This document shows positions 27,751-31,608 of a DNA stretch of 64,000 bases, piece by piece. The DNA comes from Methylobacillus rhizosphaerae (GTDB lineage: Bacteria; Pseudomonadota; Gammaproteobacteria; Burkholderiales; Methylophilaceae). The stretch is taken from NCBI RefSeq assembly GCF_900187985.1, contig NZ_FZOA01000007.1, positions 62,001-126,000 of the forward strand, in the 5' to 3' direction. How positions within the stretch are numbered: the stretch's first letter is position 1; each line of letters starts with the position of its first letter. A program made the position numbers and the translations under genes. The notes beneath the pieces were generated by a model, which saw only the letters and a list, made by a program, of their open reading frames with translations, was not told the DNA's origin and did not search any database.

Positions 27751-30042
27751 ATGGCCACGATCCATAACCTTGGATTTCCGCGCATTGGCGCCAAGCGTGA
27801 ACTGAAGTTCGCGCTGGAGTTCTACTGGAAGGGCGAATCTTCGCGTGAAGAACTGAAATCCATCGGCGCCAGCTTGCGCCAGCGTCACTGGGCAGCACAA
27901 TCCAGCTTGGATTTGGTGCCTGTCGGCGATTTTGCATTCTACGACCAGGTACTGGACATGAGTTTTACCTTGGGTAATTTGCCAGAGCGTGTCTGGGATT
28001 TTCACGGTGATCAGCTGGACAATTACTTCCGCGTGGCGCGTGGCCGCTCCGCCAAATCCGCCGAGGAACATGCATCGTGTTGCGGCGGGGTTGCTGCAGG
28101 CGAAATGACCAAGTGGTTCGATACCAACTATCACTACATTGTGCCTGAATTCAACGCCGACACTACATTCAAGCTGGACGCCTCGCGCCTGCTGGAACAG
28201 CTTGCCGAGGCCAAGGCGCAAGGCGTCAAGGCCAAGCCTGTCATCATCGGCCCGGTTACCTACCTGTCCATCGGCAAGGCCAAGGATGACTCCGACAAAC
28301 TGGCCCTGCTGGAACGCCTGTTGCCTGTATATACGGAACTGCTGGAAACCCTGGCGGCGCAAGGTGTCGAATGGGTACAGATCGACGAACCCATCCTGGT
28401 TACCGAGCTGGATGACACCTGGAAGGATGCATTTGAAACCGCTTATACCTATTTCAAGAGCATCAAGGTCAAGCTGCTGCTGGCGACCTATTTCGGCCAA
28501 TTGCTGGAAAACCGCGAGCTGGTGGCAAGCCTGCCTGTCGCTGGCGTGCATGTCGATGCCATCAATGGCCGTGACGACATCGCGTCGCTGCTGGCATTGC
28601 TGCCTGCGGACAAGATAGTATCCCTCGGTGTCATCAATGGTCGCAATATCTGGAAGACCGATCTTAATACAGTGCTGGATTGGGTAGAGCCTTTAGCGCA
28701 GCAATTGGGTGAGCGCCTGTGGATAGCGCCCTCCTGCTCACTGTTGCATGTGCCGGTGGATCTGGACAGCGAACAGCGCTTGGATACGGAAATCAAGTCC
28801 TGGCTGGCGTTCGCCATCCAGAAGCTGGATGAGTTGAAGGTGCTGGCAACAGCCCTGCGCAATGGCCGTGCCGCGGTCAAGGCAGAACTGGATGCTAACC
28901 AGGCAGCGATTAACGCACGCCGCAACTCGCCACGTGTGAACAACCCGGCGGTCAAGGCTGCATTGGGCGAACTGGATGCCAAGCTGGGCAAACGCAAGAG
29001 TCCATATGCGCAGCGTGCTGCCAAGCAATCCGTTTCTCTAAATCTACCGAAATATCCAACCACGACCATAGGCTCCTTCCCGCAAACCGCGGATATCCGC
29101 CAGGCGCGCAGCTATTTCAAGGCTGGCACCTTGGATGAAGCTGCCTACAAGGCTGCGATGCAGAGGGAAATCGAGCGTAGCGTGCGCGAGCAGGAAGCCC
29201 TTGGACTGGATGTGTTGGTGCACGGCGAAGCCGAGCGTAACGATATGGTGGAATATTTCGGCGAGCAATTGGAAGGCTATGCGTTCAGCCAGTTCGGCTG
29301 GGTACAGTCCTACGGTTCCCGCTGCGTCAAGCCACCTATCCTGTTCGGCGACATCAGTCGACCGCAGCCGATGACTGTGGAATGGATCAAATATGCGCAA
29401 TCGCTGACCAGCAAGCCGATGAAAGGCATGCTCACTGGCCCGGTGACTATCCTTAACTGGTCCTTTGTACGCGACGACCAGCCGCGTTCGGTCAGCTGCT
29501 ACCAGTTGGCTCTGGCGATCCGTCAGGAAGTGCTGGACCTGGAAAAAGCTGGCGTGCACGTGATCCAGATCGACGAAGCTGCATTACGCGAAGGCTTGCC
29601 ATTGCGCAAATCTCAGTGGAAGGAGTATCTCGACTGGGCAGTGGAGTCGTTCCGCATCACCGCCAACGGTGTGGAGGATGACACCCAGATTCACACCCAT
29701 ATGTGCTATTCGGAGTTCAATGACATCATCGCCTCGATTGCGGACATGGATGCTGACGTCATCACTATCGAGACTTCGCGCTCGGATATGGAATTACTGG
29801 ATGCGTTCGATAACTTTAATTACCCGAATGAGATCGGGCCTGGTGTCTACGACATCCATTCGCCCAATATTCCATCTGAAGAGCATATTGTGCAGTTGAT
29901 GAGAAAAGCGGCTGAGCGTATTCCGGCAGAACGTCTGTGGGTGAATCCTGATTGCGGCCTCAAAACGCGCCAATGGGCGGAAGTTATTCCTGCATTGACC
30001 AATATGGTGGCTGCGGCAAAGGTGTTGCGTTCCGGTCAATAA
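27751..30042 (+). CDS. metE: Cobalamin-independent methionine synthase
   Basis: MetE makes methionine by transferring a methyl group from methyltetrahydrofolate triglutamate to homocysteine with zinc but without B12. The start ATG has AAAGG upstream and gives the canonical [13 protein letters not shown]. The 763-residue protein has an N-terminal half barrel and a C-terminal catalytic barrel beginning near [17 protein letters not shown]. Zinc ligands are visible in [14 protein letters not shown] (His and Cys) and in [10 protein letters not shown] (Cys); the homocysteine-binding region [17 protein letters not shown] is intact. The gene is monocistronic with its own terminator and is divergent from metR. 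Confidence 0.97.
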
Positions 30043-30067
30043 ACCTTACCTTCAAACATGGAAGTCA

Positions 30068-30100
30068 GGAAAACCGCTGTTATGGCGGTTTTCCTTTTTT
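30068..30100 (+). terminator. Terminator after metE
   Basis: A perfect 10-base stem GGAAAACCGC/GCGGTTTTCC with a 7-base loop is followed by six T, 25 bases after the metE stop. Confidence 0.9.
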
Positions 30101-30196
30101 ATGCCACGGGTAGAGAAATTGTCATGTAGATAACATCTCAAGCATGCACAGCATAGATCACCCATATTGGGGGGAGGGGGATAGGTTTGGGTGAGC

Positions 30197-30212
30197 GTCT
30201 CACTATTGAGAC
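30197..30212. promoter_or_regulatory. Palindrome 1 of a matched pair
   Basis: GTCTCACTATTGAGAC fits the pattern GTCTCANTATNGAGAC, shared exactly with a second site 78 bases downstream. A two-fold symmetric site duplicated in a gene-free region is what a dimeric repressor or activator operator looks like. The left flank adds an overlapping inverted repeat GTGAG-CGT-CTCAC. The cognate regulator is unknown. Confidence 0.5.
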
Positions 30213-30274
30213 TGTTAAAAACTAATTAAAAACAATTGGTTAGATATTTTTGTATGTATTGATTATTTTTGTGT

Positions 30275-30290
30275 GTCTCAGTATGGAGAC
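30275..30290. promoter_or_regulatory. Palindrome 2 of a matched pair
   Basis: GTCTCAGTATGGAGAC differs from palindrome 1 only at the two variable positions. Its right end is 60 bases upstream of the -35 of the candidate small RNA. A direct repeat CAATTGGTTA follows each palindrome (30233-30242 and 30340-30349), though at different distances. Confidence 0.5.
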
Positions 30291-30349
30291 ATATATTGGG
30301 TGGATGTAGAGCATGGAGATGATGATTTTATAATAAAATCAATTGGTTA

Positions 30350-30378
30350 ATGACTGTGGCATGGTGAATGCTTAAGAT
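30350..30378 (+). promoter_or_regulatory. Candidate promoter for a small RNA
   Basis: ATGACT at 30350 and TAAGAT at 30373 are separated by 17 bases; each matches four of six consensus positions. It is the best-placed promoter upstream of the C-loop hairpins and terminator at 30415-30564. Confidence 0.4.
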
Positions 30379-30384
30379 TGGTTT

Positions 30385-30564
30385 CATGAAGTAATAGCCG
30401 TTGTGTCAGTGACTCTTCAGATATTGGTCATATCCCCCCCCATGGACCATGGTGCTGGAGAAAGAGCGATCACATTGAAACGGTTATGAGCCTAAGTCAT
30501 ATCCCCCCATGGTGAGGGCTCTTCATTCAAGCGCCGGGCATGTATATGTTCGGCGCTTTACTTT
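30385..30564 (+). ncRNA. Candidate small RNA with two C-rich hairpin loops
   Basis: No coding frame is evident here, but the plus strand folds into a clear series. Hairpin 1: CTTCAG (30415) with CTGGAG (30455), then GGTCAT with AT-GACC, displaying the loop ATCCCCCCCC. Hairpin 2: GAGCC (30488) with GGCTC (30517), then CAT with ATG, displaying ATCCCCCC. A terminator ends the region. Exposed C-rich loops are a known device by which bacterial small RNAs pair with G-rich ribosome sites. GGGGGATA at 30176-30183, upstream of the proposed start, is complementary to both loops. The 5' end is inferred from a weak promoter. Confidence 0.5.
30529..30564 (+). terminator. Terminator-like hairpin ending the candidate small RNA
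   Basis: AAGCGCCG pairs with CGGCGCTT around a 14-base loop and is followed by TACTTT. The weak T tract lies only on the plus-strand side, although no plus-strand protein gene precedes it, which is part of the case for a non-coding transcript. Confidence 0.55.
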
Positions 30565-30587
30565 GTGGGATGTATGGATGCAATCGT

Positions 30588-30806
30588 CTAGGCTGGCGAT
30601 TTCCTTAATGGATTCAGTATGGAAGCCAGGCCGTTGTGATCCAATTCCTGCATGATGGCAAGCAGGCGGCCAATCTCGCCCGGTGGAAAGCCGTTACGTG
30701 CAAACCAGTGGAGATAATGGCCTGGCAGGTCAGCGATCAGACGGCCTTTGTATTTGCCGAATGGCATGACGCGTGTTACCAGCAGTTCTAGATCGCTTGA
30801 TTGCAT
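30588..30806 (-). CDS. DUF3820 family small protein
   Basis: The 72-residue product matches the DUF3820 pattern: VMPFGKYKGRLIADLPGHYLHWFARNGFPPGEIGRLL. Proteins with this motif are widespread in Proteobacteria, sometimes described as putative quorum-sensing-regulated factors, and the FGKYKG...YLxWF motif also occurs as an accessory domain of some nucleases. No catalytic residues are evident. Its start overlaps the end of the next upstream gene by 19 bases, so the two are probably co-transcribed. Confidence 0.8.
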   Translation of the reverse strand: MQSSDLELLVTRVMPFGKYKGRLIADLPGHYLHWFARNGFPPGEIGRLLAIMQELDHNGLASILNPLRKSPA

Positions 30807-31129
30807 CCTGGCTCCACGGACAGGCTTGATAAAAGGTTGATGGCAGCAGGAATGCTGATCGCGCCGATTTTGCTGGTGCAGCAGATTCCTTCCTGTGCTG
30901 CGTGCGCCCTGATCAGTATCAGAATCTCCTCCAGCGTCATGTGGTTCAGCAAGTTCAAGCGCCGGTCGGGAGTGATAGCGTATGCGATGCCGTGGCTATC
31001 AATCAGCCTTGCAGCGCCTGGACTTGCTCCCCATGTCTGCCAGGCAGAGTCATCAGCGATATATTCCAGTTCGGCATCTCCGAGATGATGAATGAGTGCC
31101 GGCCATGAGAGAGGTGTCGGGGCGGACAT
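30788..31129 (-). CDS. Small protein of unknown function (DUF4144-like)
   Basis: The 113-residue protein begins MSAPTPLSWPALIHHLGDAELEYIADDSAWQ, a WPA-(x)n-GDxELxYI pattern reminiscent of DUF4144 proteins, and continues with ITPDRRLNLLNHMTLEEILILIRAHAAQEG. No signal peptide or membrane segment is seen. I cannot assign a role. It overlaps the DUF3820 gene, and the divergent neighbour across 149 bases is a cupin gene. Confidence 0.7.
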   Translation of the reverse strand: MSAPTPLSWPALIHHLGDAELEYIADDSAWQTWGASPGAARLIDSHGIAYAITPDRRLNLLNHMTLEEILILIRAHAAQEGICCTSKIGAISIPAAINLLSSLSVEPGCNQAI

Positions 31130-31278: not shown

Positions 31279-31608
31279 ATGAGCAAGATTGTTGTTGAAA
31301 GTAATCCCCCTGCCGCGCGTCTTGAGGCACTTGGTGTCGGTAAGTGGCCAACATGGTCCAAGGAAGTGTCTGTTTTTCCATGGGTATTTCCTGAGCAGGA
31401 AATTGCTTATGTGCTGGAAGGTGAAGTGGTGATCAAGCCGGATGATGGCAGCGCACCAGTGGTGTTCCGCAAGGGGGACCTGGTCACTTTCCCTGCGGGT
31501 TTGCGCTGCACCTGGGAAGTGAAACAGCCATTGCGTAAACATTATCACCTGGATGGTACATTGATCGGCCGTATTTATCGCCGTGCTAAATTATTTTTCA
31601 CACGTTAA
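31279..31608 (+). CDS. Cupin domain protein
   Basis: This is a 109-residue single-domain cupin of the EutQ-like (DUF861) type. The cupin core is EIAYVLEGEVVIKPDDGSAPVVFRKGDLVTFPAGLRCTWEV, with the N-terminal KWPTWSKEVSVFPW typical of the subfamily. The usual metal-binding histidines of motif 1 are not obvious, so it may bind a ligand without catalysis, or act as an epimerase-like protein. Cytosolic by sequence. The function is unknown. Confidence 0.85.
   Translation: MSKIVVESNPPAARLEALGVGKWPTWSKEVSVFPWVFPEQEIAYVLEGEVVIKPDDGSAPVVFRKGDLVTFPAGLRCTWEVKQPLRKHYHLDGTLIGRIYRRAKLFFTR

Follow-up and report, generated by a model that had tools for sequence, protein, structure and literature searches.

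The window is the whole stretch of DNA that was analysed, 64,000 nucleotides of Methylobacillus rhizosphaerae. A predicted small-RNA gene lies in it on the plus strand. Upstream is metE, which ends at 30042 and is followed by a terminator-like hairpin at 30067-30095; downstream are two minus-strand genes, at 30588-30806 (Pfam QSregVF_b) and 30788-31129 (DUF4144). No frame of 50 aa or more was found in the ORF list for 30114-30587, small frames of 22-48 aa overlap the small-RNA region, and the next plus-strand gene of any size in the list starts at 31279, past the terminator and the two minus-strand genes. The 5′ end of the RNA was set 12 nt past the -12 element, by analogy with GlmY at two outside loci (L145, from Tatumella morbirosei, and L171). 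The features of the locus are as follows.

30197..30212, no strand: far activator palindrome GTCTC-N6-GAGAC, predicted site of GlrR/QseF type
30230..30242, plus strand: IHF-like site with 1 mismatch
30274..30291, no strand: near activator palindrome TGTCTCAGTATGGAGACA, an exact fit to TGTC-N10-GACA
30337..30349, plus strand: IHF-like site AATCAATTGGTTA, exact
30357..30371, plus strand: sigma-54 -24/-12 element TGGCAT-N6-TGC
30383..30563, plus strand: predicted small RNA of about 181 nt, both ends estimated from the sequence
30425..30449, plus strand: hairpin A with a C8 loop (C-run 30434-30441), within an enlarged first stem, in the window species only
30488..30521, plus strand: hairpin B with a C6 loop (C-run 30503-30508), the C-loop hairpin conserved in the genus
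30529..30558, plus strand: intrinsic terminator hairpin with a T-rich tail

The two C-loop hairpins of the preliminary description, 69 bases apart, were recovered. Their motifs are CATATCCCCCCCCATG (30429-30444) and CATATCCCCCCATG (30498-30511), and the shuffle expectation for the pattern CATATCCCCC..CATG was 0.01 per window. Folding of the RNA from 30370 to 30565 placed both C-runs in loops and gave -63.8 kcal/mol (z -2.61), an energy that 1 of 200 shuffles reached. The terminator that the description had assigned to the RNA is the hairpin at 30529-30558, a call that is weak by the scan alone, which gave 2 terminator-like hairpins in 2.2 kb versus a shuffle mean of 1.8. Rfam 15 at the gathering score returned only a tRNA from the whole window and no family matching the small RNA; with E up to 1, the interval 30100-30600 matched SCARNA7 alone, at 12 bits versus a cut-off of 65.

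A plain DNA search of 60 relatives gave no match to the feature, which therefore seemed species-specific at first. The QSregVF_b gene, present in all six Methylobacillus genomes (G000 to G005, G000 being the window genome), was used as synteny anchor. Three of the five other genomes of the genus carried, at the same place, one hairpin of the form GAGUC..GCCA-U(U)CCCCCCC-UGG..GACUC and a terminator. The copy in G005, about 3.1 kb from the anchor, was located via its promoter, and the copy in G002, about 15 kb from the anchor, was matched by a covariance model built without G002 (E 2.3e-11). The gene is present in 6/6 genomes of the genus; all six species retain its structure and promoter, with three different placements of the gene with respect to its neighbour. 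Both Methylobacillus flagellatus and M. arboreus are harmless methylotrophs available in culture; a literature search with most subscription papers outside its scope found no report on a small RNA of M. flagellatus or on this RNA.

The preliminary description had proposed a regulatory RNA of the Methylophilaceae. The regulatory RNA gene stands, and its range contracts to Methylobacillus: the gene was not recognised among 181 other Methylophilaceae genomes. A model-free pattern (a sigma-54 box, then TCCCCCC at 40-70 nt) occurred once per genome in all six Methylobacillus genomes and in 5/181 of the others (reversed control 0/187); the five matches in other genera had no GTC-N10-GAC within 250 bp upstream. 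Spread through the family was considered on the strength of 78 further genomes of the 187 that matched the covariance model at E<=0.1 (best 5.8e-7), and was rejected. Among 24 loci examined from those genomes, GTCTC-N6-GAGAC was found in none and a C6 run inside the match in none, and the ten whose sequences were read looked like ordinary terminators or coding DNA. Across 399 order-level genomes the model matched three from Methylobacillus at 2.7e-15 or better and eight others at 7.2e-6 to 8.3e-5; the eight were without a C6 run near the match and without the palindrome. Separately, in two species of another Methylophilaceae genus (L388 and L389, from position 1501) a sigma-54-like box and a small gene, by eye resembling a Flp-type pilin, are separated by a leader of about 200 nt that folds strongly, is almost the same in both species and contains a C7 run.

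Loops and stems, whose conservation in related genomes had been put forward as a check, are retained in all six species, with two-sided changes in the stems. A six-sequence alignment had 95.1% of its cells paired and two-sided change in 6 of 24 pairs, a count that leans towards the structure because the model guided the alignment and had itself been built from five of the six sequences. Two-sided changes were as high in 1 of 500 shuffles, the covariation score in 0 of 500, and sliding the partners by 1-3 columns reduced pairing to 25-41%. In G002 and the window species the C-loop hairpin has GAGCC/GGCUC as its outer stem, in place of GAGUC/GACUC. The CAT/ATG closing stems described earlier hold for the window species and are particular to it, the relatives closing with GCCA/UGGC, GCCA/UGGU or GUCA/UGAC. 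A single C-loop hairpin (7-8 C) is present in five species. The window species carries another, inside a long first stem that replaces the short first hairpin of the relatives, so that the predicted length is about 181 nt versus 99-105 in the relatives (ends estimated in each case). The C-run has 7 residues in each of four relatives and 8 in G002, and the two runs of the window species have 8 and 6; the mean predicted unpaired probability of the runs was 0.94-1.00 in 6/6. These data argue well for a conserved small-RNA gene of Methylobacillus, read from sequence as a regulatory RNA gene. The G-rich stretch GGGGGGAGGGGGATA at 30169-30183 is complementary to the C-loops and was without counterpart in four relatives aligned; GGGGGATA (30176-30183), which the preliminary description had singled out for this complementarity, is present, lies upstream of the promoter and could not be upheld as a functional element.

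The -35/-10 promoter that had been proposed was given up: a scan for sigma-70-like pairs found none near the hairpins (single match at 31037), and the region reads instead as a promoter of the sigma-54/enhancer type. The pattern TGGCA(C/T)-N6-TGC is present in 6/6 copies. The near GTCTC-N6-GAGAC lies at -80 to -83 in all six, with one mismatch in G003. The far one lies 76-79 bp upstream of it, at -158 to -162 from the -24 element, and is exact in five copies, with 2 mismatches in G002. An IHF-like site at -19/-20 with at most one mismatch occurs in five copies (three exact; G005 without), and an upstream one (1 mismatch, -125 to -130) in four, that of G005 (-130) being unaligned with the others. 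The palindromes, sigma-54 box and IHF-like site are in register among the copies. Base shuffles of each 200-bp upstream region contained even one palindrome of the GTCTC-N6-GAGAC type in at most 7 of 2000 cases. Counted singly, perfect sigma-54 matches number three in the window, exact TGTC-N10-GACA two and exact IHF-like sites seven; both exact GTCTC-N6-GAGAC of the window are at the small-RNA locus. Since two of the perfect sigma-54 matches lie elsewhere in the window, the case for sigma-54 rests on conservation. The site of QseF/GlrR is published as TGTC-N10-GACA (PMC8745638), and three TGT-N12-ACA sites with assistance by IHF are described for glmY (PMC6075780). The far palindrome of G004 (L011:1121-1160) sits inside a terminator-like hairpin, CCCCCGTCTC..GAGACGGGGG, followed by a T-run, and one sequence may there serve both roles.

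Across 60 family genomes, TGTCTC-N6-GAGAC followed by TGGCA occurred at 17 places in 11 genomes among the matches listed (reversed control 0). Two of these places are in the window genome: the small-RNA promoter and a site just downstream of a sigma-54 activator gene. The best NCBIfam model for this activator was GlrR (NF011695) at 624.8 bits, below the cut-off of 763, and the next was NtrC at 424. Seven strong sigma-54 activator domains were found in the window genome; at six other activator loci, where the longest frame per locus was taken (that of L034 possibly not being the activator), the GlrR model matched 0/6 at E up to 1e-110. The operon runs kinase, a 201-aa protein with a lipoprotein-like start, regulator, which is the order expected of qseE-qseG-qseF. 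The kinase matched PDB chain 9m08_C over residues 4-478 (E 3.5e-66). Entry 9M08 comes from a QseG-QseE structure paper that reports qseEGF clusters in Betaproteobacteria (PMC12691602); this paper alone was retrieved by a search for GlmY in Betaproteobacteria that left most subscription papers outside its scope. For the 201-aa protein, sequence comparison gave no match to QseG and a scan of a viral collection no relative. GlrR-like genes (64-84% identity) end 68-99 bp before the palindrome at eight loci among the matches listed, and in L145 and L171 an Rfam GlmY gene begins 12 nt beyond the palindrome and sigma-54 box. An open scan for the palindrome yielded at least 119 stretches, many of them without a GlrR-like gene nearby, and shows association of the palindrome with GlrR, not specificity.

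Other sites were noted. On contig C11 of the window genome, a 137-aa frame with a hydrophobic start (L369:4698-5111) comes after glrR and after a palindrome of GlrR type that is accompanied by a sigma-54-like box; the frame had no Pfam match and no firm NCBIfam match, and may from its position be a second GlrR output. L089 and L169 each have a GlrR-like gene (60-61% identity) whose start is preceded, at a distance of about 3 kb, by a palindrome of GlrR type and a sigma-54 box. Rfam found no GlmY at these sites, and a further small RNA or gene may lie there.

Targets were surveyed in G000 to G005 with the pattern GGGGGGA-N2..14-ATG, which gave 19, 30, 19, 37, 39 and 29 matches, respectively, versus 14, 10, 13, 18, 13 and 12 for the reversed pattern as control. 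The matches inspected (all in G000, G003 and G004, all but one in G001, 25/29 in G005 and 7/19 in G002) included 56 frames of at least 45 aa, among which the only ones to recur were flhC (in G003 and G005) and a 110-aa frame with 62% identity between G004 and G003; none was common to all six genomes. The window genome had no convincing G-run gene start among its 19. As background, of 51 window frames 200 aa or longer, 0 had a G5 run within 20 nt before the first ATG, which is not always the true start. Among the matches inspected, G001 alone had a G-run start at a flagellar rod-like protein. The earlier idea that the C-loops pair with ribosome sites has one candidate target. In all four genomes of the genus that have flhC (Pfam FlhC), which encodes the flagellar master regulator, GGGGGG lies 4-9 nt before its ATG, and duplexes with the loop, computed for loop and leader alone, came to -14.8 to -17.3 kcal/mol; by sequence, flhC is a candidate target in these four species. 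No flhC match was found in the window genome or G002, so flhC cannot be the target there and other targets must exist if the RNA works in these species. The QseF-GlmY pathway of Proteus mirabilis likewise acts on flhDC, at which no QseF site was detected (PMC8745638). glmS was tried as a target and rejected, having no G5 run from -260 to +60 in 6/6 genomes. The copies of G000 and G002, the two genomes without an flhC match, are also the most diverged, with the lowest model scores.

The gene, its structure, the predicted exposed loops and the promoter anatomy can be read directly from the alignments, and from them we consider it rather likely that the RNA is a GlrR/sigma-54-dependent, trans-acting small RNA that represses mRNAs through its C-loops at G-rich ribosome sites. 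The binding of GlrR and IHF, transcription, the direction of regulation and the targets we infer. When the envelope-sensing system QseE-QseG-QseF (GlrK-GlrR) is active, the phosphorylated regulator would bind the two GTCTC-N6-GAGAC sites, IHF would bend the DNA, and sigma-54 RNA polymerase would transcribe the gene as far as its own terminator, giving about 100 nt of RNA, or about 181 nt in the window species. The exposed UCCCCCC loops, of which the window species would have two, would then pair with G-runs at ribosome binding sites and repress the mRNAs.

A different mode of action would be that of a GlmY-like decoy which titrates an RNA-binding protein (RapZ or another), the C-loops binding protein rather than mRNA. 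GlmY itself binds RapZ and spares GlmZ. The promoter logic is the same as that of GlmY, and the lack of a convincing G-run gene start among the pattern matches of the window genome would suit such a role; the Rfam model nevertheless gives no GlmY match and the gene is not sited before qseEGF, while glmS starts without a G-run are compatible with a decoy but no proof of one. We regard this as unlikely. Smaller still is the chance that the RNA is real and sigma-54-dependent but answers to another enhancer-binding protein with a similar palindrome, an idea prompted by the seven activator domains of the window genome, by open-scan palindromes that also lie beside activators 33-45% identical to the GlrR-like protein, and by the many open-scan matches with no activator gene nearby. 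Against it, the only other such site of the window genome directly follows the GlrR-like gene, the same site is found in the GlmY promoters of the two outside loci, and none of the six other activator loci examined matched the GlrR model at E up to 1e-110.

It is very improbable that the locus encodes no trans-acting RNA and is instead a leader, the gene of a small protein, or a terminator-bearing remnant that is not expressed. The overlapping frames of 22-48 aa would allow a small protein, but the differing C-run lengths (6, 7 and 8) would throw a common reading frame out of step, the plus-strand gene that comes next in the list starts at 31279, behind the terminator and two minus-strand genes, and all six species retain structure and promoter, with the gene at three places with respect to its neighbour. 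For the trans-acting, C-loop RNA, a broader statement can be offered tentatively, as somewhat short of an even prospect: GlrK-GlrR in Methylobacillus would use an unrelated, lineage-specific small RNA in the place of GlmY with the promoter logic kept, the C-loops would repress G-rich ribosome sites, including that of flhC where present, and the pairing loop would have been doubled in one species. With its C-runs and the same kind of switch as the cell-envelope RNA GlmY of E. coli relatives, the small RNA may serve a widespread envelope sensor as a separate RNA output. GlmY is the known small-RNA output of GlrR/QseF; if the proposal is true, a non-homologous RNA in the same slot in a betaproteobacterium makes the role of the sensor outside Enterobacteria testable and would clearly exemplify a control circuit that uses different RNAs from one lineage to another.

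Among known RNAs, RepG of Helicobacter pylori, which we take to be the RNA also named HPnc5490, pairs via its terminator loop with a target whose G-repeat varies in length. It targets a G run in an mRNA leader (PMC8295292), as would the RNA proposed here, and has a loop with a UCCCCCU core, given for HPnc5490 in PMC3771888, though its organism is unrelated to Methylobacillus. sX13 of Xanthomonas also has several stems with apical C-rich loops, with C-runs of 4-5 versus 6-8 here. It acts on mRNAs with G-rich motifs near the start, and its repression needed both the C-rich motifs and the G-motifs of the targets, although compensatory mutations failed to restore regulation (PMC3771888). GlmY (RF00128) of Enterobacteria has a sigma-54 promoter, several upstream TGTC-N10-GACA sites and IHF (PMC6075780, PMC8745638), and a predicted sigma-54 promoter with sites of the QseF/GlrR type is likewise found at the Methylobacillus gene. 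Unlike GlmY, which scores 96 bits with RF00128 in L145 and L171, the RNA gave no RF00128 match at the gathering score in the window or at the loci of five relatives, it has C-rich apical loops, and it lies on contig C15, not immediately upstream of the qseEGF-like operon, which is on C11. By sequence, the small RNA would represent a new family within a general kind already known, wired in a way familiar from GlmY.
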